The notes below the pieces were generated by a model. That model had not been told where the DNA came from. It saw only the letters and a list, made by a program, of their open reading frames with translations, and made no database searches. Both the position numbers and the translations under genes were made by a program. Below are positions 1 through 12,425 of a DNA stretch of 64,000 nucleotides, piece after piece; positions within the stretch are counted from its first letter, which is position 1, and each line of letters begins with the position of its first letter. Origin of the DNA: Enterococcaceae bacterium (GTDB taxonomy: Bacteria > Bacillota > Bacilli > Lactobacillales > Enterococcaceae); assembly GCA_022649665.1 (NCBI GenBank), contig JALCOL010000003.1:1-64000 (forward strand). The letters are read 5' to 3'.

Positions 1-242
1 AACTGCTTAAAAGGATCCATTTTCTTGAAATAAAAAATCCCAAGCGGGTTTTTCTGCTCGCCTGGGATCCACTACATTTTATTCAGTTTGAAAGCTCACC
101 AACACTATTTGACGAAGAGCCTGAAAATTTTGATTTTCCAATCAATCTGATGTTTGCTTGCTCCATGGAGATTGTGGAAGGCGGAGCGGAAGAATGGATG
201 GACTACTTTTTAGAAAAGAAGTTGACTGCAAAGTTGGTTTAA
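1..242 (+). CDS. C-terminal fragment of an unidentified protein
   Basis: An open frame enters from the left edge (codons begin at position 3) and ends at TAA 240-242, giving about 79 residues. The tail is acidic, with the segments SPTLFDEEPENFDFP and EGGAEEWMDYFLEKK. No start is visible because the gene is cut by the window edge. I do not recognise the family. It could be the end of a regulator or enzyme preceding the yjbQ-ECF operon, but it lies 215 bp upstream with an operator-like palindrome between, so it is probably a separate transcription unit. Confidence 0.5.
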   Translation, partial: LLKRIHFLEIKNPKRVFLLAWDPLHFIQFESSPTLFDEEPENFDFPINLMFACSMEIVEGGAEEWMDYFLEKKLTAKLV

Positions 243-400
243 AAGAGTCGGCTTGTCTGGATAGTAAAAAAAATTATCAAAAATACGAACAATAGATGAC
301 TTATTCGCTAAAAATGTTTATGTTTTTACTGAATTTTTCAGGGATCAATGGTAATCTGGAAGTAGCTTTTTGATAGTGATCCTATATTTTTTCATCGTTT

Positions 401-414
401 CTTAAACGTTTAAG
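401..414. promoter_or_regulatory. 14-bp perfect palindrome, LacI-type operator candidate
   Basis: CTTAAACGTTTAAG is a perfect palindrome 44 bp before the TTG start of yjbQ. Its AAACGTTT core resembles LacI-family operators such as CcpA cre sites, although the outer bases do not fit the cre consensus. It lies where an operator for the following ECF operon would be expected. No convincing -35/-10 pair was found around it. Confidence 0.4.
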
Positions 415-457
415 TCTATGCTTCAAAAATTCGAATTCAATTAGAGGTGAGTACGAT

Positions 458-862
458 TTGTTTAAGCGATTTGAACTATGTACGGCCAAAAACGAAATGA
501 TCAAACTGAATGAAAAGATTTTAGCTGTTGTTGAAGAAAGCAAAATCCAAAATGGAAATTGTACTGTTTTTACACCGCATACTACTGCGGGGCTCATCAT
601 TACTTCTTTTTGGGATCCGCTTGGTTTAGAGGATTTTCAAGATGAGATGTCACGTTTGATACCAACAAAAGTTGATTTTAAACATCAACATGATACGCCA
701 ACCGATGCCGCTGGACACATCAAGTCTGCGATTACTGGGGTAAGCCAGCAATTGATCATTTACGAAGGGCGACTTATGCTGGGACACTCCCAAGGTATTT
801 ATTTTGCTGAATTTGATGGTCCGCGAAAAATACAATTTTTTGTAAACATTGTTGGAAACTAA
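458..862 (+). CDS. yjbQ: YjbQ/UPF0047 family protein (possible secondary thiamine-phosphate synthase), intact copy
   Basis: A 134-residue protein of the YjbQ (UPF0047) family, usually 130-140 residues. Family hallmarks are visible: TPHTTAGL around residues 39-46, DFKHQHDTPTDAAGHIKSAITG in the middle, and LGHSQGIYFAEFDGPR near the end. The conserved His residues are putative metal or phosphate ligands. Some members have weak thiamine-phosphate synthase activity, but the true role is unsettled. The start is TTG 458, chosen because GAGGTGA lies 7 nt upstream and no ATG fits. It is the first gene of a tight run with an ECF transporter, 21 bp ahead of the S component. A second, broken copy closes the operon at 5198. 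Confidence 0.85.
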   Translation: MFKRFELCTAKNEMIKLNEKILAVVEESKIQNGNCTVFTPHTTAGLIITSFWDPLGLEDFQDEMSRLIPTKVDFKHQHDTPTDAAGHIKSAITGVSQQLIIYEGRLMLGHSQGIYFAEFDGPRKIQFFVNIVGN

Positions 863-883
863 AAAAAGAAAAGAGGATTTCAA

Positions 884-1540
884 ATGAATATGATCAAAAA
901 AAATAGCTTCGCAGACAATTTCGCGTTGTTTCAATTATTGATTATCCCAATCGGTGTAGCCATCAACTATGTCGGCGGGAACTTAGCAATTTTACTGAAA
1001 TTGCCACTTTTTCTAGATGTGATCGGAACATGTTTTGCTGCAATGATTGCTGGTCCGTGGATCGGGATGTTGACCGGGATTCTGACGAACTCAATGATCG
1101 GCATCACACAACCGATGGCATTTATGAGTATTCATGTACAGATTGTAATTGCACTAACAGTAGCTATCTTATCCAAAAAGAAAATGTTGACCAAAGTTTG
1201 GAAATTCGCTTTATCTTGTCTCATTCTTGTGATCATGACTTTGTGCGCTTCTTTGCCGACGCAAATCTTTCTCTTAGGCGGAGTTACCGGATCGATGACC
1301 GATATCGTTACCGCAACGATCGTCAAAGCCGGATTACCGCTTTGGATGGGTGTTGCTGCAACCCAATTTGTCAGTAATATTTTCGATAAATCTTCAGCCT
1401 TGATCATCGCATTTTTGATTGTTCGAGCAATGTCACCACGCTTCTTATCTAAACTGCGGTATGGAGATATTTATATGAGCATGAAGAAAAAAACAAAAAA
1501 ACATGCTGTCCAAGAACCAAAAGAACCCAGCCAAAATTAG
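884..1540 (+). CDS. ECF transporter S component (substrate-binding membrane subunit), substrate unknown
   Basis: A 218-residue integral membrane protein with about five or six hydrophobic segments and a basic, lysine-rich tail (MSMKKKTKKHAV). Size, topology and position directly before EcfT and two EcfA genes identify it as the S component of an energy-coupling-factor importer. Segments such as FLDVIGTCFAAMIAGPWIGMLTG are typical of ECF S proteins, where a small-residue helix packs against EcfT. The substrate cannot be read from sequence. A GAGGA ribosome site precedes ATG 884. Since the operon encodes its own T and A subunits, this is a dedicated (group I-like) ECF system rather than one sharing a housekeeping module. 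Confidence 0.75.
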   Translation: MNMIKKNSFADNFALFQLLIIPIGVAINYVGGNLAILLKLPLFLDVIGTCFAAMIAGPWIGMLTGILTNSMIGITQPMAFMSIHVQIVIALTVAILSKKKMLTKVWKFALSCLILVIMTLCASLPTQIFLLGGVTGSMTDIVTATIVKAGLPLWMGVAATQFVSNIFDKSSALIIAFLIVRAMSPRFLSKLRYGDIYMSMKKKTKKHAVQEPKEPSQN

Positions 1541-1558
1541 CGGGGAGGTGCGGATCTG

Positions 1559-2380
1559 ATGGAATCATTCCTTACTGATAAAAAAGCAGATCGGAACTCA
1601 GAAGGTGGGAACAAGATGGAATCTTTTGTGAGCAGACGATATGGAGTAGAAAAGATCTATCCGACAACAAAATTGCTATTTGCCTTGGTTTTGTGCGCAG
1701 CCACATTTCTCTTGCCGTTCAAGGGTGCTGGATATTATATTTTTTTAATTAATATCGGATTAGCAGTGATGTCAAATAAATTTAAATCTTATGTTGCACT
1801 CGCTGGAAAAACATTGGTTCCGATCATTATGTTAATGTTTATTTTTCAACTGTTTGTTGTTTCTGGAACGCATGAGCTTTTTGGATTTGGACCATTTCGT
1901 GCGACACAAGAGAGTTTGACTTCAGCGATTGTCTTTTCTTCGAACATAGCTGGGATTGCCTCATCGATCATGCTGTTTTTTCAGTTAACGCCAACGAGAT
2001 CACTTATTAAAGCAATGGAAAATGCGAATATTCCTAAAACAGCCATCTTTGTGATCAATTCGACCCTCTTGCTCGTCCCTGAGGCAAGCAAGTTGTCAAA
2101 AACGATTATGGAAGCTCAGCAATCACGCGGGGTCGAAACAGAAGGATCACTTCTAATGAGGATCAAATCTTTTGTGCCGATGATCAGCCCATTAGTCTTG
2201 TCAACAATTTCTAATAATGAAGAAAAAGTATTGACTCTGGAAAGCCGCGGTTTTTCCTGCTCGAATAAACGAACCGTACTTTTTCCTTTGAAAAAAAATA
2301 AACGAGACCGTCTTTTAAACTGGGCTTCGGTATTTATTTTTGTTGGATTGATCATTTGGAGGGTTCTGCTATGGAAATAG
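1559..2380 (+). CDS. ecfT: ECF transporter transmembrane coupling subunit EcfT
   Basis: A 273-residue membrane protein with the two EcfT coupling motifs, SRG in AQQSRGVETEG and in LESRGFS; these helices dock on the ATPases. Two starts are credible. ATG 1559 has GGGGAGGTG 8 nt upstream. ATG 1616 has AAGGTGG 7 nt upstream and would give a 254-residue protein starting MESFVSRRYG. Both starts are followed by the near-repeat MESF, so the first 19 residues may be a duplicated leader. The gene starts 18 bp after the S component and overlaps the next ATPase gene by 10 bp, indicating translational coupling. Confidence 0.8.
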   Translation: MESFLTDKKADRNSEGGNKMESFVSRRYGVEKIYPTTKLLFALVLCAATFLLPFKGAGYYIFLINIGLAVMSNKFKSYVALAGKTLVPIIMLMFIFQLFVVSGTHELFGFGPFRATQESLTSAIVFSSNIAGIASSIMLFFQLTPTRSLIKAMENANIPKTAIFVINSTLLLVPEASKLSKTIMEAQQSRGVETEGSLLMRIKSFVPMISPLVLSTISNNEEKVLTLESRGFSCSNKRTVLFPLKKNKRDRLLNWASVFIFVGLIIWRVLLWK

Positions 2381-3258
2381 TTCATTTGGAAAATATTTCA
2401 TATAAATATCCGACTAGCAAAGAAGCCGTTCTCAAAAATATCTCGCTGTCGCTAGAAGCTGGAAAAGTATATGCTTTGATCGGTGAGAATGGAGGCGGGA
2501 AAAGCACACTTTGCAGCTTGATTCGCGGCTTCATTCCGCATGTTTTTAAAGGCGATCTTGAGGGCAAAGCAGTCGTTTTTGAGAAAGATATCGTGAAAAC
2601 GAGTTTGGGAGAATTTGCGGATATGATTGGCTATGTGGCTCAAAATCCCTTTACACAAATTACTGGGACAACCGAGTCTGTATATGAAGAAGTCGGATAT
2701 GGACTTGAAAGCTTGGGAAAAAAGCGGGAAGAGATCTTAGAAACGATCGATCAGGTTCTTGAAATCTTTCATATAGAAGATCTTGCTGAAAAAAAGCCGA
2801 ATGAACTTTCTGGGGGCCAAAAACAAAAAGTGGCATTAGCCTCGGTATATGCTATGAATCCTGATCTTTTTATTATTGATGAGCCGACTTCGCAATTGGA
2901 TCCAGTTGGAACGAATGAAATATTTTCAATTGTTTCACAGTTAAAGGAGTTTGGGAAAACCGTATTATTAGTTGAAAATAAAATTGAATTAGTCGCCCAG
3001 TATGCAGATGAAATTTTTTTGGTAAAAGATGGGAAAATAATCGATCATGGGACGCCGACCGACCTTCTGACTAAAAAAAGCACAGCGGAAAACGGATCAT
3101 TTTTACCACAATTTACGATGCTGGCGTGGAAATTGCATGAAGAGGGCTTCCCGATTGATGTTTACCCGGTTTTACAAGAAGAGGCAGTCGAGATGGTAAG
3201 TAAGCTGAGAATGCAAGGGAATGGAGGAGATCGATTTGGGATACATCGAAGTGAATGA
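2371..3258 (+). CDS. ecfA: ECF transporter ATPase EcfA (canonical signature)
   Basis: A 295-residue ABC ATPase. It has Walker A GENGGGKS (Gly where Ala/Ser/Cys is usual), Q-loop YVAQNP, signature LSGGQKQKVA, Walker B LFIIDEP followed by TSQLD, and a Glu for catalysis. The switch His is replaced by Asn in LVENKIE. The start is ATG 2371, with GGAGGG 8 nt upstream; an upstream TTG at 2356 would place the start inside this ribosome site. It powers import through EcfT together with the following ATPase. The C-terminal 60 residues are the EcfA-specific dimerisation region. Confidence 0.85.
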   Translation: MEIVHLENISYKYPTSKEAVLKNISLSLEAGKVYALIGENGGGKSTLCSLIRGFIPHVFKGDLEGKAVVFEKDIVKTSLGEFADMIGYVAQNPFTQITGTTESVYEEVGYGLESLGKKREEILETIDQVLEIFHIEDLAEKKPNELSGGQKQKVALASVYAMNPDLFIIDEPTSQLDPVGTNEIFSIVSQLKEFGKTVLLVENKIELVAQYADEIFLVKDGKIIDHGTPTDLLTKKSTAENGSFLPQFTMLAWKLHEEGFPIDVYPVLQEEAVEMVSKLRMQGNGGDRFGIHRSE

Positions 3259-4072
3259 TTTGGTATTTGAATATCCCAATGGGAATCGTGCGCTGGATCA
3301 AATCAATTTAGAGATTGATCGCGGCGAATCTGTCGCAATCATCGGTCAAAATGGCGCAGGGAAGACGACACTAGTCAAGATGTTGAATGGGTTGTTAAAG
3401 CCTTCCGAAGGGGAGGTAATCATCGATCATTGGAATACTAAAGATTATACAACGGCAAAATTAGCAAAGAAAGTTGGATATGTATTTCAAAATCCTGATG
3501 ATCAGATTTTTCACAGTAATGTTTATGATGAAATCGCTTTTGCCCCGAAAACAGCGGGCATTGCTGAAGACTTGATCGAGGAAAGGGTGCTAGAAGTTGC
3601 TAGAGTATCAGGTTTATCTGAATATTTAGATGATAATCCGTATGATCTTCCTTACTCGATCCGAAAATTTGTGGCGATTGCTTCGATCCTGGCATTGGAT
3701 TCTGATGTAGTAGTTTTGGACGAACCAACGGCTGGTCAAGATAAACGCGGAATTCAAGTAATAGAAAAAGTCATCAACTATTTGATCGATAAGAATAAGT
3801 CCGTAATTACGATTACCCATGATATGGAGTTCACCGTTCGAAATTTTGATCGCATCATCGTTATGGCGCATAAAAATAAAATCGCTGAAGGTACGCCAGC
3901 CGAGATCTTCTGGAAGTTTGATATTTTGGCTGATGCAAAGTTAATGCAACCTTATACGAGTCGTGTTGCTAAAGAAGTTGGCATGGAGGATAAAATTATT
4001 AATATTGAAGGGTTTTCCAATGCACTGAAAAATGAACAATTGCAGATTCCAGAAAGTGGTGAAGGAAAATAA
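3236..4072 (+). CDS. ECF transporter ATPase EcfA' with degenerate ABC signature
   Basis: A 278-residue ABC ATPase paired with the preceding one. Walker A GQNGAGKT, Q-loop YVFQNP, Walker B VVVLDEPTAGQD and switch His in ITHDME are intact. The ABC signature LSGGQ is replaced by LPYSIRKFVAIAS, so only one composite ATP site of the heterodimer should hydrolyse normally. I chose TTG 3236 because GGAGGAG ends about 7 nt upstream; the ATG at 3221 sits on that ribosome site. It overlaps the previous gene by 23 bp and the next by 1 bp. This degenerate form is known among Lactobacillales ECF ATPases. Confidence 0.8.
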   Translation: MGYIEVNDLVFEYPNGNRALDQINLEIDRGESVAIIGQNGAGKTTLVKMLNGLLKPSEGEVIIDHWNTKDYTTAKLAKKVGYVFQNPDDQIFHSNVYDEIAFAPKTAGIAEDLIEERVLEVARVSGLSEYLDDNPYDLPYSIRKFVAIASILALDSDVVVLDEPTAGQDKRGIQVIEKVINYLIDKNKSVITITHDMEFTVRNFDRIIVMAHKNKIAEGTPAEIFWKFDILADAKLMQPYTSRVAKEVGMEDKIINIEGFSNALKNEQLQIPESGEGK

Positions 4073-5184
4073 TGTATGAGAGTCCAATGAAAGACCAGGT
4101 GCTAAGTATTAACAGTCTTCTTCAAGAGCAATACGAAGACTTAGAACCAAAAGTCCGCAAGTTATTCCCTACTCCTGAAATTTTCAACTTTCAAAAGATT
4201 ATTTTGACAGGTGCCGGAGACAGTTATGCTGCTGCTTTGGTTGGCAAGTTTTATCTGGAGCGATTCGCTGGTCTTCAAACGGAAGTAGTCTCAGCGATTG
4301 ATCTCTCCAGAAACTATCAAAAAGAGACACTTTATTTTAGTCCGCAGAACCCGCTGGTAATTGCTATCAGCAATTCAGGAAATGTAGCTAGAATCGGTGA
4401 AGCTTTAGCGCGAACAAAAAATTGGGGAGCATATAATGTAGCTATCACAGCAAACATCGACTCAGCCGTCGGAAAACAATGTGAGCGGCATTTGGTAACA
4501 GAGATTCCAAAAATGGCCTCAAGTCCCGGAGTTAGAAGCTATTTAGTAAATGTGCTGGCACTTATATTATTAGCTATTCGTTTAGGCGAAGTTAAGGGAA
4601 AAATTACAATGGATCAGGCAAGTGAATTGCGGGAGAATCTCCACAATCTTTCATGTGATCTCCTCACTATTGAAAAAACGATCGATAGGCTGACGCCGAC
4701 ATGGGCGCAATACACTGGATATGATTTTATCGGGGACGGGTCGGACTTTGGAAATGTCCTATACGGAAGTGCGAAAATTCTAGAAGCAGCGGGGAAATAT
4801 TCAATGTATGTAAATACAGAAGAATGGCTTCATTTAAATTTCTTTTTGCGCAAGCACCAGACGACTGGTACGATTCTTTTTATCAATCAGCAAAATGCCG
4901 GATTTTCGCGGGAAAAGGAGGTCCTAGAATATATTGAGAAGCTAGAGCGCCCAGCATTAGTGATCACCGATACAGATCTTACTATAAGAAATGAAAAGAT
5001 CACAATTATAAAATTCGAAAAAAATATATTTCATCCACTGCTGCAGTGGGTACCCGCTGCGTTTTTAGCTAGCAACATCGCTGTTGAAATCGGAGAAGAA
5101 GATGGACGCGGAACAAAGGGACCATGGGCATTTGCTAGAAACGGCGCGGCAGTTCAAAAAAGCAAAATAGTAAAAATCGAATAA
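4072..5184 (+). CDS. Double-SIS-domain sugar-phosphate isomerase/deglycase-like protein
   Basis: A 370-residue protein with two SIS (sugar isomerase) domains, the architecture of the GlmS isomerase half, AgaS and FrlB. The first domain carries TGAGDSYAAALVGKFY (residues about 47-62) and ISNSGNVARIGEAL (about 101-114), the phosphosugar-binding loops. The second carries FIGDGSDFGNVLYGSAKILEA and NTEEWLH, similar to isomerase active-site segments. It probably acts on an aminosugar- or ketosamine-type phosphate. It overlaps the preceding ATPase stop by 1 bp, so it is translationally coupled to the transporter and may process what the ECF system imports. The exact substrate is unknown. Confidence 0.75.
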   Translation: MYESPMKDQVLSINSLLQEQYEDLEPKVRKLFPTPEIFNFQKIILTGAGDSYAAALVGKFYLERFAGLQTEVVSAIDLSRNYQKETLYFSPQNPLVIAISNSGNVARIGEALARTKNWGAYNVAITANIDSAVGKQCERHLVTEIPKMASSPGVRSYLVNVLALILLAIRLGEVKGKITMDQASELRENLHNLSCDLLTIEKTIDRLTPTWAQYTGYDFIGDGSDFGNVLYGSAKILEAAGKYSMYVNTEEWLHLNFFLRKHQTTGTILFINQQNAGFSREKEVLEYIEKLERPALVITDTDLTIRNEKITIIKFEKNIFHPLLQWVPAAFLASNIAVEIGEEDGRGTKGPWAFARNGAAVQKSKIVKIE

Positions 5185-5197
5185 GAAAGGGAAGCAT

Positions 5198-5605
5198 ATG
5201 CTGATCAATCATAAAATCAATACACACTTTAATGAAGTATATCCCGTTCATGATTTAATCAAAGCAGATATTAAAATGACGGGAGTAAAAGATGGACTAT
5301 GTGTCATCTATTGTCCGCATACTACAGCTGGATTGACGCTTACTTCGAAAATGGATCCGCTTGGCCATGAAGATCTGCAAGAGGAACTAACGCGGCTTGT
5401 CCCGACGCGAATCGACTTCAAGCATCAGGTCGATACTCCACAAGATGCTGCTTGACATATCAAAGCAAGTATAGCAGGGGATTCTTTGACATTAATCATT
5501 GATAATGGTGAGCTGTTACTAGGATCGTCTCAAGGAATCTATTTTCTAGAATTTGATGGACCGCGAAGTCGACAGTTTTTTGTTAAAGTAGTGTCTGATA
5601 CTTGA
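5198..5605 (+). pseudogene. Second yjbQ copy interrupted by one in-frame TGA
   Basis: The frame opens at ATG 5198 after AAAGGGA and encodes CPHTTAGLTLTSKMDPLG and FKHQVDTPQDAA, clearly YjbQ. It stops at TGA 5453-5455. The same frame continues with HIKASIAG and LGSSQGIYFLEFDGPR to TGA 5603-5605, the expected C-terminus. In the intact copy at 458 the corresponding codon is GGA (Gly of DAAGHIK), so a single G-to-T change explains the break. No frameshift is present. It lies 13 bp after the SIS gene, last in the operon. Likely a recent pseudogene; a sequencing error is the main alternative. Confidence 0.8.
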
Positions 5606-5634
5606 TTCATACTGCGCGAAGCTCCGTTATCAAA

Positions 5635-5681
5635 AAAAAGTTCTGCAGCGCTGATGTTGATCAGCGCTGCAGAACTTTTTT
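5635..5681. terminator. Strong bidirectional Rho-independent terminator
   Basis: A 20-bp perfect stem (5635-5654 with 5661-5680) around a 6-nt loop. It has A-runs on one side and T-runs on the other, so it can end both the ECF operon (plus) and the hydrolase gene at 5680 (minus), whose stop codon touches it. Confidence 0.9.
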
Positions 5682-6441
5682 AGACAAGATTGAACTTCGG
5701 TTTGGCGTTGAGCGATCCCGCGTGTTCCAAAAATCCGCGGAAAAGTTTTTTAGTTGCTTCTTTTTCTTGGAGCATTTCGGGATGCCACTGGACTCCTAAA
5801 AGAAAAGTATCGATCTCGCGGCTTTCGATTGCTTCGATGCCGTAATCGTCCGCGACTGCGGTGACCCGCAAGCCCTTTGCCAAACGCTTGATCGATTGAT
5901 GATGGAAGGAATTGACTTGCGTCTCAGTCGTCCCCAGCGTGCGGGAAAGAAAGGAGGCGGGGCGGAGTCGGATGGTCTGCGTGGAGTGTTGTGGTTCGTC
6001 TTCTTGAAAATGCGGCAAGATCGCGATATTGCGCTCTGAAAGGTCTTGATACAGCGTCCCGCCGAGCGTTACGTTGATCAGTTGTGCACCGCGGCAGATC
6101 CCGAGGACCGGCACATGATATTTCAAAGCATAGTGGAGGAGCATCGTTTCAAAATGATCGCGGAGCGGGCACAGTTTGCCGAGGAGCGCGTGCGGTTCTT
6201 CATTGTAGAGAGAAGGGTCGATATCTTGTCCGCCGGTCAAAACAAGGGCATCGAGGGCTCTGACTTGCGCCTCGATCAAGTGGGGCTGGGCGAGCATCGG
6301 CAAAACGAAAGGAACACCGCCGTTTTCTGCGACCGCGGTAATATACTGTTCGTTGGCGTAAGCCCGCGGACAGCGCATCACATTCTCCTGAGAATCTTCT
6401 AACGTATTGCCGGAAATGCCGACGATCGGCAAGTATTCCAT
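5680..6441 (-). CDS. Class-I glutamine amidotransferase-like (peptidase C26) gamma-glutamyl hydrolase
   Basis: A 253-residue protein of the PuuD/gamma-glutamyl-GABA hydrolase type. The nucleophile Cys is in LGICRGAQLINVTLGG, and the His-Glu pair in GVQWHPE completes the triad. TGGQDIDPSLY is the usual oxyanion region. The family cleaves gamma-glutamyl amides such as gamma-glutamyl-GABA in polyamine breakdown. I used ATG 6441 with AAAGGAG 8 nt upstream; the GTG at 6450 overlaps that site. The gene upstream of its promoter is an aldehyde dehydrogenase on the same strand, which fits a loose putrescine/amine catabolic pairing, but the two have separate terminator and promoter. Confidence 0.85.
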   Translation of the reverse strand: MEYLPIVGISGNTLEDSQENVMRCPRAYANEQYITAVAENGGVPFVLPMLAQPHLIEAQVRALDALVLTGGQDIDPSLYNEEPHALLGKLCPLRDHFETMLLHYALKYHVPVLGICRGAQLINVTLGGTLYQDLSERNIAILPHFQEDEPQHSTQTIRLRPASFLSRTLGTTETQVNSFHHQSIKRLAKGLRVTAVADDYGIEAIESREIDTFLLGVQWHPEMLQEKEATKKLFRGFLEHAGSLNAKPKFNLV

Positions 6442-6475
6442 TGCTCTCACTCCTTTATCATAAATTATTAATCAC

Positions 6476-6504
6476 AGTATAATCGAAGTATCGCTGAATG
6501 AAAA
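6476..6504 (-). promoter_or_regulatory. Promoter of the C26 hydrolase gene
   Basis: On the minus strand a TATACT -10 (6476-6481) follows a weak TTTTCA -35 (6499-6504) with 17-bp spacing, about 35 bp before the ATG. Confidence 0.45.
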
Positions 6505-6557
6505 GTATTCTTTTCTGATCACTCGCGACACATCGCACTTATCACGCACAAGCACCA

Positions 6558-6588
6558 AAAAAACCTTGCCTCCCAGCAAGGTTTTTTC
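6558..6588 (-). terminator. Rho-independent terminator after the aldehyde dehydrogenase
   Basis: AAAAAACCTTGC and GCAAGGTTTTTT flank a 6-nt loop (6558-6587). It is about 75 bp past the stop of the minus-strand aldehyde dehydrogenase and separates it from the next gene. Confidence 0.85.
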
Positions 6589-6661
6589 GGTGTGTGGTGT
6601 GTGTGAGAGTGAGAAAAGAAAATAAGGGAAGTAAAGAATCAATGAATACTTCTATATATGA

Positions 6662-8173
6662 TCAAGGGTAGAAGCCGCTTGGGGCGTCCCCTAAATCAAC
6701 CATGATATTTTTCGTCTGCGAGTAAGCGTCGATCATTGATTTATACGTTTCGCGCCCGATCCCAGATTTTTTATAGCCGCCGAATGGAGCACCGGCAGGA
6801 ATCTGATTGTATGTGTTGACCCAAACGCGGCCGGTCGCCATTCCTTGGCTGACTTTGAAAGCAGTCTGCAAGTTGGTCGTCCAAACACCGCCGCCTAAGC
6901 CGTATTCAGAATCATTAGCCAAACGGATCGCTTCATCAGCATCTTTGAATTTGATGACGACTGCAACGGGTCCGAAGATCTCTTCTTGGGCGATCCGCAT
7001 GTCGTTCGTCACATTGGTGATCAGCGTGGGTTCAAAGTAGCAGCCGTCCGCCAAATCGCCGGTTGTTGCGCGTTTGCCGCCAGTCGCGATCTTCGCGCCT
7101 TCTTCTTTAGCGATGTCCATATAGCCGAGGATCTTTTCAAGCTGCTTTTCGTTGATCTGTGCGCCCATTTGTGTCGCCGGATCCCAGGCATGGCCGACTT
7201 TGACATTTTCGAACGCTTTGATCAGTGCCGGTACAAATTTATCATAGACGCTCTCTTGGACAAAGATCCGCGAACCCGCACAGCAGACTTGACCTTGATT
7301 GAAGAGGATCCCGAGTTGCGCGCCATCGAGCGCTTTTTCAAACGGCATATCTTCAAAGAAGATGTTGGCGGATTTTCCGCCGAGTTCAAGGGTTGCCGGG
7401 ATCAAACGATCAGCAGCGGCTTCTGCGACATTGTAGCCGACTTCAGTCGAACCGGTGAAGGCTAATTTGTCAAAGCCGTCGTGGTGGAGCATATAGTCGC
7501 CGGATTTAGCGCCTTTGCCGGTAATGACATTCAAAACGCCTTTTGGCAGAATGTCTTGAACGAGCCGCGCAAATTCCAAAAGCGAAAGCGAAGTCGATGA
7601 GGATGGATGGATCACGATCGTATCCCCGCACGCGAGCGCCGGGGCGATCTTCCAAGCTGCCATCAAGAACGGGAAGTTCCATGGAATGATCTGGCCGACC
7701 ACGCCGATCGGTTCGCGCAATGTAATGGAAAGTGTTTTTTCATCGATCTGCTGAGCAGTCCCTTCTTCGCTGCGCAAAACACCGGCGAAGTAGCGGAAGT
7801 GGTCCGCCGAAAATGGAACATCGATCGCGGTAGTTTCGCGGATCGGTTTGCCGTTATCCATCGTTTCGACCATCGCCAAGTGCTCGGCGTTTTCTTCGAT
7901 CACGTCAGCGATCTTGAGCAAGATCAGGCTGCGTTCTTCTAAAGAGACTTTGCGCCAAGCCGGCAAGGCGGCACGTGCAGCTTTGACAGCAGCATCGACA
8001 TCTTCGTCGGCGGCATCGATGAATTCTGCTAATTGTTGTCCGTTAGCAGGACTTTTCGCGGCCAAATATTGTGAGCGAGCACCCGTAGTCCACTCGCCAT
8101 TGATGAAAAGACCGTATTTTTCTTGCAGATCCAATTGGATTTTTTCTTTTTCTTTTGTCATGATTTCTACCAT
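6662..8173 (-). CDS. NAD(P)-dependent aldehyde dehydrogenase
   Basis: A 503-residue ALDH superfamily enzyme of normal length, oxidising an aldehyde to the acid. Visible motifs: PWNFPFLMAAWKIAPALACG (cofactor entry), FTGSTEVG (dinucleotide loop), LELGGKS (general-base Glu), GQVCCAGSR (catalytic Cys) and EEIFGPV (cofactor ribose-binding Glu). It most resembles acetaldehyde/betaine-type dehydrogenases; the substrate is not fixed by sequence. The start ATG 8173 has GAGGGTG upstream on the minus strand. Its promoter carries a cre-like site, so carbon catabolite control is plausible. The downstream gene on the same strand is a C26 hydrolase, but with its own signals. Confidence 0.9.
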   Translation of the reverse strand: MVEIMTKEKEKIQLDLQEKYGLFINGEWTTGARSQYLAAKSPANGQQLAEFIDAADEDVDAAVKAARAALPAWRKVSLEERSLILLKIADVIEENAEHLAMVETMDNGKPIRETTAIDVPFSADHFRYFAGVLRSEEGTAQQIDEKTLSITLREPIGVVGQIIPWNFPFLMAAWKIAPALACGDTIVIHPSSSTSLSLLEFARLVQDILPKGVLNVITGKGAKSGDYMLHHDGFDKLAFTGSTEVGYNVAEAAADRLIPATLELGGKSANIFFEDMPFEKALDGAQLGILFNQGQVCCAGSRIFVQESVYDKFVPALIKAFENVKVGHAWDPATQMGAQINEKQLEKILGYMDIAKEEGAKIATGGKRATTGDLADGCYFEPTLITNVTNDMRIAQEEIFGPVAVVIKFKDADEAIRLANDSEYGLGGGVWTTNLQTAFKVSQGMATGRVWVNTYNQIPAGAPFGGYKKSGIGRETYKSMIDAYSQTKNIMVDLGDAPSGFYP

Positions 8174-8205
8174 ATACCAATCACCCTCTATCCTTGATTA
8201 GCCTT

Positions 8206-8233
8206 AGTATAGCGCTTTCAGAAAGTTTGGCAA
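8206..8233 (-). promoter_or_regulatory. Aldehyde dehydrogenase promoter overlapping a cre-like site
   Basis: On the minus strand TTGCCA (8228-8233), 16 bp, TATACT (8206-8211). The sequence TGAAAGCGCTATAC (8207-8220) lies in the spacer and -10 and fits the catabolite-responsive element consensus except at the last two bases. Confidence 0.6.
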
Positions 8234-8404
8234 GGCTTAAAAGGCGAACGAATAAGTTTAATAAGGAAGATACGTTCGTCAAATATTTATAGGTAATACG
8301 TAATACACGAGGGAAGCGGCGAGTAACTAGCCTTGTGAAAAAAATAATAAGACAAAGTGAAAGCCGTTGAATAGCAAAAATAAAATTAAAAAATAATTCA
8401 AAGT

Positions 8405-8434
8405 TTGTACTCTGCCCGCCGGAAAGCATATAAT
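8405..8434 (+). promoter_or_regulatory. Promoter for the hydrophilic protein gene at 8457
   Basis: A perfect TATAAT -10 at 8429-8434 with a weak TTGTAC -35 at 8405-8410 (18-bp spacer), 23 bp before the start codon. Confidence 0.55.
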
Positions 8435-8456
8435 GGATGAGGAAGGAGAGAGACCT

Positions 8457-8954
8457 ATGCAAAAATTCCACGGAAAAGATGAAAAATTATCTCCCAAAAG
8501 CTATCAGCCGACGCGCGCTGTTTTGGAAAAACGCGAACAGCTCTTTGATTTTCCGACACGCCCGCTGCATCGTTTTGATCCAATGCACCGTTTGAAAGAA
8601 CCGGATACATATACGCCGAGTGTTGATGAGCGCCGGTTTCAACCGACCCAAAGACTCCCGCAGCTCCGCACGAAAGATTCTTTTAATGAAGGAATCCGAT
8701 TTTCATCATGGATCACCAAGGCGGATCGCGATGTGCTGCTTTTTGGCGGTCCGGATGAAAAAATGGAGCAAGAAGATGGAAAAGAAGCAATGATCGCGCC
8801 TTACGCTTCTATAGAAGAAAAAGAAAAAGCGGAGCGGTTGGAGAGGATCCGAACGCGCAACAGCGGCAAGCACCGCGCCCTCGAAAAATCACTCAGTGGA
8901 CTGATGACGGAATCGAAACCGCAAGAAGCGGAAAACCCGTATTTTACTTCATGA
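8457..8954 (+). CDS. Hydrophilic charged protein of unknown function
   Basis: A 165-residue protein with no membrane segment or signal peptide. It is rich in Arg, Lys, Glu and Pro and likely partly disordered. It contains repeated short motifs of the type TRxLxxRxxLFDFPTRPLHRFD and LERIRTRNSGKHRALEKSLSGLM. I do not recognise a family. The start is ATG 8457 with AAGGAGAG 6 nt upstream; an earlier ATG at 8433 overlaps the -10 box and cannot be the start. It is immediately upstream of murC, separated by a weak hairpin and an inverted repeat. Its own promoter and ribosome site argue that it is real. Confidence 0.7.
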   Translation: MQKFHGKDEKLSPKSYQPTRAVLEKREQLFDFPTRPLHRFDPMHRLKEPDTYTPSVDERRFQPTQRLPQLRTKDSFNEGIRFSSWITKADRDVLLFGGPDEKMEQEDGKEAMIAPYASIEEKEKAERLERIRTRNSGKHRALEKSLSGLMTESKPQEAENPYFTS

Positions 8955-8978
8955 TAAGCGCTTGCTAGGGCGTTTTCT
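8955..8978 (+). terminator. Weak terminator-like hairpin
   Basis: AAGCGC pairs with GCGTTT (one G-T wobble) around a short loop, followed by TTTTCTT, right after the stop at 8954. Short stem, so termination is probably partial. Confidence 0.35.
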
Positions 8979-9010
8979 TGCATTATTTCTTGATTTATAG
9001 GATAATGCAA
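8979..9010. repeat. Inverted repeat upstream of murC
   Basis: TTGCATTAT (8979-8987) and ATAATGCAA (9002-9010) form a perfect 9-bp inverted repeat with a 14-nt loop, about 50 bp before the murC start. It may be an operator or a 5' leader hairpin. Confidence 0.45.
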
Positions 9011-10980: not shown

Positions 10981-12425
10981 ACAATTACTTAGAAGATGCG
11001 AAAGTCCAAAAAGACCGCTGGATGATCTTGCTTGCGGTCGGACTGTTCACATTTATGTCGACGCTTGACGGAAGCATCGTGAATATCGCGCTGCCGACGA
11101 TGATCAAAGAAATGCATATCCCGGCGAATCAGGCAGAATGGATCGTTTCGATCTATTTGATGGTCGTTTGTTCGCTGCTGCTGTTGTTCGGGAAGATTGG
11201 CGACTCCTACGGCAAAATCAAAGTCTTTCGGATCGGCACGTTTATTTTCGTCTTCGGTTCATTTTTGTGCGGATTGAATCTCGGACTGCCGTTTCTTTTA
11301 GGCGCGCGTTCGCTGCAGGCCTTGGGGGCGAGCATGACGATGAGCACGAACAATGGGATCATTACGGAGATCTTTCCGCTTTCTGATCGGGGGAAGGCGC
11401 TCGGCTTTATCGGGAGTTTCGTTTCGCTCGGCAGCATCGCCGGCCCCGGGATCGGCGGGATCCTTTTGGCTCATCTCGGCTGGAGCTACATTTTTTGGAT
11501 CAATGTGCCGATCGGCCTTTTGACGATCCTCTTAGGGAAATTCGTTCTGCCAAAAGACTTCAGCATGGACCGGATGAAAATCGATTACCAAGGCTTCCTG
11601 CTCTTTACTCTGTTTATTTTCTCCTTTTTCGCCGGGATCTTTATCGGTCAAGAGATCGGCTTCGGCAAGCCGGTTATTCTAGGGCTATTTGCGCTTGCGC
11701 TGGTCAGCATCGCGGCATTCATCCGGCTGGAACGCAAACTTCCCAATCCCTTGCTTTCGCTCCGGCTGTTTAAAAATATGGACTTTTCGGTCAGTCTGTT
11801 TACGGCGTTTCTGATCTTTGTCGTCATGTTCTTCTTCAATGTCATCGCGCCTTTCTACTTGCAAAATGCGCGCGGGCTGGCACCGAATACGGCGGGCTAT
11901 ATCTTGATGGTCTTCCCGATCTTGCAAGTCTTTGTCGCACCGATCGCCGGCGGAGTCTCGGATAAGATCGGTCCTGAGCTTTTGACGCTGCTTGGTCTGC
12001 TTTTGATGAGCGCCGGGCAATTGGGATTTGTGATCACGCAGGAAGGCACGCCGCTCTGGATCTTCATGATCTTCATCGCTTTGATGGGGATCGGCAATGG
12101 GATGTTTCAAGCGCCGAACAATACGATCGTCATGAGCACTGTTGAAAAGCAGGACTTGGGGATCGCCGGCGGTTTGAACGCTTTAGCCCGGAATTTTGGG
12201 ATGGTCAGCGGGATCTCGCTGGCAACGACGGCTCTTTTTCACCGAATGAGCCAAGTATACGGCAAGCATACAACGACTTATATCGATCACCGGCCGGATG
12301 TTTTCATGTCGGGGATGCATTATACATTCGGGATCGCGCTTGTCTTGTGTGCAGCAGCTCTTCTTTTGACGGGCTGGCGGATGTGGAAGATCCAGCGCTT
12401 GCGCAAGCAGAGTTTCTTGAAATAA
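10977..12425 (+). CDS. DHA2-family (14-TM) drug:H+ MFS efflux pump
   Basis: A 482-residue polytopic membrane protein with about 14 hydrophobic segments, as in EmrB/QacA. Motif D1-like LDGSIVNIALPTM lies in the first helix, motif A-like GKIGDSYGKIKVF follows helix 2, and motif C-like GPGIGGILLAHLGWSYIFWINVPIG is in helix 5. The function is proton-coupled export of a drug or metabolite. ATG 10977 overlaps the marR stop; longer upstream frames read back into marR. A MarR-controlled pump is a common detoxification pair. Substrate unknown. Confidence 0.92.
   Translation: MNNYLEDAKVQKDRWMILLAVGLFTFMSTLDGSIVNIALPTMIKEMHIPANQAEWIVSIYLMVVCSLLLLFGKIGDSYGKIKVFRIGTFIFVFGSFLCGLNLGLPFLLGARSLQALGASMTMSTNNGIITEIFPLSDRGKALGFIGSFVSLGSIAGPGIGGILLAHLGWSYIFWINVPIGLLTILLGKFVLPKDFSMDRMKIDYQGFLLFTLFIFSFFAGIFIGQEIGFGKPVILGLFALALVSIAAFIRLERKLPNPLLSLRLFKNMDFSVSLFTAFLIFVVMFFFNVIAPFYLQNARGLAPNTAGYILMVFPILQVFVAPIAGGVSDKIGPELLTLLGLLLMSAGQLGFVITQEGTPLWIFMIFIALMGIGNGMFQAPNNTIVMSTVEKQDLGIAGGLNALARNFGMVSGISLATTALFHRMSQVYGKHTTTYIDHRPDVFMSGMHYTFGIALVLCAAALLLTGWRMWKIQRLRKQSFLK

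Follow-up and report, generated by a model that had tools for sequence, protein, structure and literature searches.

A candidate operon for nucleoside uptake and ribose-phosphate processing that joins an ECF importer to a SIS–YjbQ pair in an Enterococcaceae bacterium

Genes and features of the operon

The window analysed here comprises the first 64,000 nucleotides of contig JALCOL010000003.1 from an Enterococcaceae bacterium (assembly GCA_022649665.1), and within its first 5.6 kb lie seven plus-strand genes encoding a YjbQ (UPF0047) protein, the S, T, A and A′ components of an energy-coupling factor (ECF) importer, a double-SIS sugar-phosphate protein and a second YjbQ. The original prediction, made from the letters alone, had proposed a one-directional set of these genes, and all seven are confirmed on one strand and with tight spacing. 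Each gene call is backed by a Pfam or NCBIfam match, that of the S component being to an NCBIfam relative only.

3..242, plus strand: C-terminus of a nucleoside 2-deoxyribosyltransferase-like gene, 79 codons, cut by the contig end
458..862, plus strand: yjbQ1 (UPF0047), TTG start, 134 aa; PF01894 113.5 bits, TIGR00149 119 bits
884..1540, plus strand: ecfS, substrate-binding S component, 218 aa; NF045596 90.8 bits
1559..2380, plus strand: ecfT, transmembrane coupling protein; PF02361 (CbiQ) 62.9 bits
2371..3258, plus strand: ecfA ATPase, LSGGQ signature; TIGR04520 204.7 bits, cut-off of 315 not reached
3221..4072, plus strand: ecfA′ ATPase, LPYSIRK signature; TIGR04521 224.5 bits, cut-off of 330 not reached
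4072..5184, plus strand: double-SIS sugar-phosphate protein, 370 aa; PF01380 50 bits
5198..5605, plus strand: yjbQ2 (UPF0047), 134 sense codons given readthrough; PF01894 116.2 bits spanning one TGA
5453..5455, plus strand: in-frame TGA at codon 86 of yjbQ2, Gly or Ala in relatives
5636..5679, interval between yjbQ2 and a convergent gene: strong terminator-like hairpin of 20 pairs

The genes had been described as overlapping, which is true of some neighbours (ecfT and ecfA by 10 bp, ecfA and ecfA′ by 38 bp, ecfA′ and the SIS gene by 1 bp), while the others are separated by short gaps of 21 bp (yjbQ1 and ecfS), 18 bp (ecfS and ecfT) and 13 bp (SIS and yjbQ2). Purine-rich runs resembling ribosome-binding sites were seen by eye ahead of most of the starts, and ecfA′ has an alternative TTG start at 3236. 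The shared terminator that had been noted corresponds to the hairpin at 5636-5679, which was called on the minus strand, the T run on the plus strand being read directly; an Rfam plant microRNA match at the same place scored 24.8 bits against a gathering score of 100 and was taken as chance. No riboswitch was found in an Rfam scan of positions 1-9000, and megablast of the operon DNA against 72,556 plasmid records returned no near match.

The boundary originally drawn, 401-5605, excluded the deoxyribosyltransferase-like fragment at 3-242 and proves too narrow. Homology of this fragment is confined to its last part, which matches a Nuc_deoxyrib_tr (Pfam) protein of G949, a genome from another Lactobacillales family, with 68% identity over 28 residues (E 5.8e-7). 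The first base of the window is also the first base of the contig, and since the contig begins inside the deoxyribosyltransferase-like gene, the operon may extend further upstream.

The second YjbQ is not the intact gene that had been described, as the TGA at 5453-5455 leaves 85 codons open. The family model PF01894 is matched above its cut-off both by this fragment and by the sequence read through the stop, while the 85-residue fragment stays below the cut-off of TIGR00149 (51.4 vs 67.75 bits). At the stop position yjbQ1 and the YjbQ of Rhizobium have Gly and that of G949 has Ala. Identity to the G949 protein is 49/85 before the stop and 32/48 after it; because the part after the stop shows no decay, the TGA would have arisen recently, reflect an assembly error or be read through. 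Selenocysteine or another recoding at the TGA was set aside rather than ruled out, the relatives having Gly or Ala at this position and not Cys and no search for selenium genes having been made.

The SIS–YjbQ pair and its relatives

A linked SIS–YjbQ pair occurs in three genomes from two phyla, namely those of the window organism, G949 and Rhizobium leguminosarum Gr 12/7, where it lies on plasmid pRL1. In a tree of 113 rows, which counts G949 twice and includes 30 short-locus rows lacking context inspection, yjbQ1, yjbQ2 and the YjbQ proteins of G949 and pRL1 form one clade with support 0.995; yjbQ2 is the closer to the G949 protein (60.9% identity, against 53.0% for yjbQ1). While yjbQ1 exceeds the curated cut-offs of both TIGR00149 and PF01894, the proteins of these three genomes form a subfamily of their own within YjbQ/UPF0047, linked to SIS and carrying the motif FKHQxDTPxDAA[GA]H. 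The three SIS proteins likewise form a clade with support 0.995 in a tree of 23 sequences, that of the window being 47.4% identical to its G949 counterpart and 32.6% identical to that of Rhizobium. The earlier proposal of YjbQ as a dedicated partner is supported in that SIS and YjbQ look like dedicated partners, given the recurrence of the pair and the two matching clades.

The neighbours of the pair in the other two genomes include nucleoside enzymes. Many neighbouring genes were identified by eye, and the most important were then checked with Pfam. On pRL1 YjbQ (11118-11522) comes after the SIS gene (L033 9974-11110), and the YjbQ stop shares ATGA with the start of a phosphorylase-superfamily gene; nearby, on the opposite strand, are a PfkB kinase gene and ABC transporter genes, the latter named by eye. 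The order in G949 is two ADP-ribosylglycohydrolases (one scanned, one by eye), PfkB, a uridine-phosphorylase-like protein, SIS and YjbQ, followed downstream by a nucleoside hydrolase, a deoxyribosyltransferase and a purine-type phosphorylase; a sugar-type ABC importer and a LacI-type regulator (by eye) lie upstream. Between G949 and Rhizobium the phosphorylases are 52.6% identical and the PfkB proteins 30.3%.

Searches around the three genomes delimit the distribution of the pair. The SIS protein had matches in seven genomes at 1e-10 among 59 relatives, its own genome included, the best beyond its own having 54 bits and 26% identity; in seven at 1e-20 among 398 genomes of the phylum (its own, G525, G509 and four with frames of GlmS length); and in 11 at 1e-40 among 22 genomes of the class of G525, none of which exceeded 151.2 bits once one G525 match was excluded. 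Within the family of G949 (29 genomes) no member other than G949 has the SIS gene. YjbQ1 has matches in 80 of 398 class genomes, a sample in which G949 is not among the listed rows, and the matches listed outside its own genome have at most 42% identity, save for short fragments in G068 (46%) and G231 (53%). PF01894 is present in 79 of 345 genomes of the order; 60 of the 90 listed rows were fetched with about 5 kb on either side where the contig allowed, and among the 56 contexts whose open reading frames were resolved (the picker failed at the other four, which is not evidence of absence) G949 alone has a SIS–YjbQ pair of this type. Relatives in Pseudomonadota were sought among the plasmid records, where the closest YjbQ by far is that of pRL1, beside SIS; the next listed matches have at most 42% identity, and neither the YjbQ nor the phosphorylase of Rhizobium, used as query, revealed another copy of the module among the matches listed. 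A pattern search of viral contigs for the YjbQ motif gave no matches. Gene order had been offered originally as a test of the pathway idea, and its outcome is divided: among the sets searched the full order of seven genes was seen only here, while the SIS–YjbQ core recurs.

The SIS protein resembles the isomerase half of GlmS, which its residues 6-342 match with 89.3 bits, and it retains, in the form EEWxH, both Glu and His from the ELKH region of GlmS, positions to which catalytic roles are assigned. It is not a GlmS, as it has 370 residues, no glutaminase domain and a score far below the cut-off of 418 bits. Searched alone against the PDB it had no match at 1e-10, and a six-row SIS profile matched GlmS and other SIS proteins; an AlphaFold single-sequence model had a mean pLDDT (predicted local distance difference test) of 37.7, and one of the S component a mean of 50.4, both too poor for use. 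Sister to the clade of window, G949 and Rhizobium are the SIS proteins of G525, G509, Mesorhizobium and Streptosporangium, and the joint clade (support 0.998) stands apart from GlmS-like and Frl-like SIS, so that membership in the sampled Frl-like proteins was rejected; the comparison loci (L005-L010) were labelled Frl on our own reading and not from a database name. The sister genes, too, have neighbours of nucleoside or sugar-kinase type: all four accompany BtpA, and in three cases a kinase and an importer of BMP or ECF type are present as well. G525 has ECF genes (by eye), PfkB, SIS, BtpA and DeoC; G509 has PfkB and a BMP-type ABC importer (by eye), SIS and BtpA; and Mesorhizobium has a kinase, SIS, BtpA and a BMP-type importer (as annotated). 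In Streptosporangium BtpA and SIS stand alone.

YjbQ/UPF0047 as a whole is widespread, being found in 10 of 14 bacterial and archaeal control genomes, and other members of the family also lie among sugar-phosphate genes. In the order a long form of about 172 residues (L040 1847-8042 and L140-L178) occurs at 39 loci, which are mutually related and not independent cases; 38 of them have a TIM-like gene and 37 a class-II aldolase-like gene on the same strand and at most three genes away. The reference genes for this count were taken from the third YjbQ locus of the window organism, which also has a ribulose-phosphate epimerase and a Gat-type phosphotransferase system (PTS). An L. paracasei plasmid has YjbQ between PTS genes and a SIS gene, followed by an epimerase and hxlB, and on plasmid 2 of E. 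faecium DO (L104 5962-11448) it is accompanied by amidohydrolases, fructoselysine 6-kinase (frlD) and a SIS gene. No SIS gene was found at four other plasmid YjbQ loci. Genome G961 has YjbQ, PfkB and SIS on the same strand within 6 kb. We also observed that the E. faecium locus adjoins an IS1216 element and aph(3′)-IIIa; that in two other genomes from the family of G949 (L193 and L199) YjbQ lies beside an amidohydrolase-2, a PfkB-type kinase and a sugar-isomerase-like TIM barrel (by eye); and that in two genomes of the order (L172 and L195) YjbQ has an AgaS-like SIS-type protein (by eye) at distances of about 2.7 and 3.8 kb.

The importer and its S component

The S and T components and two ABC ATPases are encoded together, which is the arrangement of a dedicated module of ECF group I. 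LSGGQ is present in A and replaced by LPYSIRK in A′, a departure from the pattern of LSGGQ in both ATPases that was not treated as disqualifying. LPYSxRK-like A′ signatures are also found at L032 and L036-L039, and L053 fits neither pattern. The ATPase pair is accordingly asymmetric, with LSGGQ in EcfA of the window and L037, and in the printed sequence of L036 and L038, and a degenerate EcfA′.

The S component has no Pfam match, and no solved S component in the PDB was matched at E up to 10. Its own relatives were found in 38 of 299 class genomes at 1e-5, own genome included, and the closest of these lie in nucleoside hydrolase operons of G329, G115, G042 and an E. raffinosus megaplasmid (L032). 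These four operons share the S-T-A-A′ order and the LPYSxRK signature of A′, with S components 36-43% identical to that of the window; each encodes a nucleoside hydrolase, and those of G329, G115 and G042 also a ribokinase-like protein (by eye in G115), where the window has SIS and YjbQ instead. In a midpoint-rooted tree of 23 rows, the window S component and these relatives form a clade of five with support 0.867, which rises to 1.0 for the seven members obtained with a paralogue on contig 12 of the window organism and a G329 paralogue beside BtpA and PfkB. In the sister clade a nucleoside phosphorylase lies directly upstream of S at L019, L021, L031 and L056. Nineteen neighbourhoods were inspected, the tree taking in three further S loci: eight have a nucleoside hydrolase or phosphorylase, one has BtpA and PfkB and ten have neither, 10 of the 19 having been viewed at only 1.5 kb per side and the S gene at L030 having been missed by the picker. 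Phylogeny of the S component had been proposed as a check on the original prediction, and it groups this protein with S components linked to nucleoside hydrolase and ribokinase and not with a known vitamin family. The substrate class, which that prediction had left unspecified, can now be narrowed, since the S relatives and the neighbours of the SIS–YjbQ pair indicate nucleosides and their ribose.

A separate observation concerns L011 (5802-6815), on a Dormibacterota metagenome-assembled contig, where a fusion protein combines a VTT/DedA-type domain with a C-terminal part resembling an S component. The fused protein is 43% identical to the window S component over the best segment, and was the sole result of the S scan of genome contigs.

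Pathway readings and their weight

Taken together, the operon probably serves the uptake of nucleosides, or of ribosyl compounds like them, and the processing of the ribose phosphate derived from them. The reading arises from the recurrence of ribose and nucleosides as the element common to the transporter, the upstream fragment and the enzyme pair. Support for the pathway class is fairly good; what we infer is the substrate, the reaction of SIS, the chemistry of YjbQ and the expression of the genes as one unit. The dedicated ECF importer would bring in a nucleoside or similar ribosyl compound, from which the base would be removed by the truncated deoxyribosyltransferase-like product or by phosphorylases encoded elsewhere in the genome, freeing the sugar as a phosphate or ready for phosphorylation. 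The double-SIS protein would then carry out an aldose-ketose isomerisation of the sugar phosphate, and YjbQ would act on the same phosphosugar, either as a handler of its anomers or epimers or as the next enzyme. Candidates for such auxiliary functions exist in the same genome: beyond the window, on the same contig (L091 2951-12458, C3:92951-102458), a second nucleoside-type operon encodes a BMP importer, ABC proteins, PfkB, a nucleoside phosphorylase, BtpA, an iron alcohol dehydrogenase and a TIM-barrel protein (by eye) in a row, and on contig 1 (L207 10609-11942) the genes for a nucleoside phosphorylase and a class II (FucA-type) aldolase overlap, an association that would be in keeping with a route through ribulose-1-phosphate or 5-deoxypentose.

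Several observations pull the other way. The window operon holds no intact kinase, phosphorylase or hydrolase, and no orthologue of the G949 and Rhizobium phosphorylase was found in its own genome (95% complete, 26 contigs), the best match having 33% identity over about 200 residues. The combination of SIS, YjbQ and ECF genes was seen only in the window among the sets searched. Eleven of the 19 inspected S loci are without nucleoside hydrolase or phosphorylase, including the one with BtpA and PfkB, and against NF045596, the model of the CD3073 family of putative ECF S components, the S component reaches 90.8 bits where the cut-off is 180, making it a relative and not a member. The window SIS protein has the C-terminal lysine found in all 16 sampled GlmS-like and Frl-like sequences. 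Finally, 14 of the 17 short-form YjbQ loci of the order match none of 23 reference sugar and nucleoside genes, some of which came from the three loci that did match, so that YjbQ as a family need not consist of sugar enzymes; the link to sugar phosphates is one that holds for some YjbQ types, not all.

A more specific version of the ribose reading is suggested by the non-carboxylating pentose bisphosphate pathway of haloarchaea, for which PMC9700705 describes an operon pattern of ribose-1-phosphate kinase (PfkB-type), guanosine phosphorylase ("uridine phosphorylase") and ribose-1,5-bisphosphate isomerase. The loci of G949 and Rhizobium resemble it in combining PfkB, a uridine-phosphorylase-like protein and SIS; unlike them, the haloarchaeal operon has ribose-1,5-bisphosphate isomerase in the isomerase position, and the term "SIS" does not occur in the main text of that paper (PMC9700705). 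By analogy, a phosphorylase might yield ribose-1-phosphate, PfkB ribose-1,5-bisphosphate and SIS ribulose-1,5-bisphosphate, which YjbQ might process before aldol cleavage. We regard this bacterial pentose-bisphosphate route as a speculative and rather improbable elaboration. The kinase and phosphorylase accompany SIS in G949 and Rhizobium and not in the window operon, and the PfkB proteins are not assignable to ribose-1-phosphate kinase by profile: that of Rhizobium matches the corresponding model weakly (30 bits, with 47.6 bits for ribokinase), and for that of G949 the model is absent among its profile matches. We know of no YjbQ counterpart in the haloarchaeal pathway.

An unlikely alternative is a ketosamine (Amadori) pathway, in which the importer would take up an aminated ketose, a PfkB kinase encoded elsewhere would phosphorylate it, and SIS would act as a FrlB-like deglycase assisted by YjbQ. 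The pairing of PfkB with SIS follows the logic of FrlD and FrlB, and is met in the operons of the relatives as well as in the G961 cluster; FrlB is itself a double-SIS protein, the E. faecium YjbQ shares its stretch with fructoselysine 6-kinase and a SIS gene, and the window SIS has the lysine already mentioned. However, the window protein belongs to a clade separate from the sampled Frl-like SIS, and its two YjbQ-partnered relatives adjoin nucleoside phosphorylases, not Frl genes. The position of the lysine is occupied by T in G949, N in Rhizobium, H in G525, N in G509 and H in Mesorhizobium, the Streptosporangium row ending ahead of it. A lysine that varies in this way within the clade is unlikely to underlie the chemistry shared by its members, so that isomerisation fits somewhat better than the Schiff-base chemistry of an amine.

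The stop codon in yjbQ2, the gene truncated at the contig end, the presence of the full gene order here alone and the sporadic distribution could also be explained by a decaying or mixed cluster, consisting of a transporter with chance neighbours and a yjbQ2 pseudogene and having no joint pathway. This is quite improbable given that the genes are tightly spaced and overlapping, that the SIS–YjbQ linkage is kept across phyla, and that yjbQ2 is conserved beyond its stop as it is before it. Least probable by far is the uptake of a vitamin or thiamine precursor with YjbQ as a secondary thiamine-phosphate synthase, for which the annotation name of TIGR00149 and the mostly vitamin cargo of ECF importers in the literature would speak. 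Thiamine or other vitamin uptake was rejected on the lack of a riboswitch in positions 1-9000 and of any match of the S component to a vitamin family or solved structure, and among the operon proteins nothing apart from the name of YjbQ belongs to a thiamine family.

The component families are known; the literature search turned up no description of their combination or of the SIS–YjbQ module. Titles and the starts of abstracts in the open-licence literature gave no account of this gene set, in agreement with the original prediction, or of a nucleoside ECF transporter, a weak form of absence. ECF importers usually carry vitamins and metals, and the relationships described here suggest that CD3073-like S components of the window clade carry nucleosides, a cargo outside the substrate classes usually cited. 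For YjbQ, the only reported activity known to us is a weak side activity. The present analysis links one subfamily of YjbQ with nucleoside enzymes and with a single SIS subfamily, and another form with TIM-like and aldolase-like genes, so that the question of its function becomes testable with named substrates; if the pentose-bisphosphate route were true, it would give UPF0047 its first true function.

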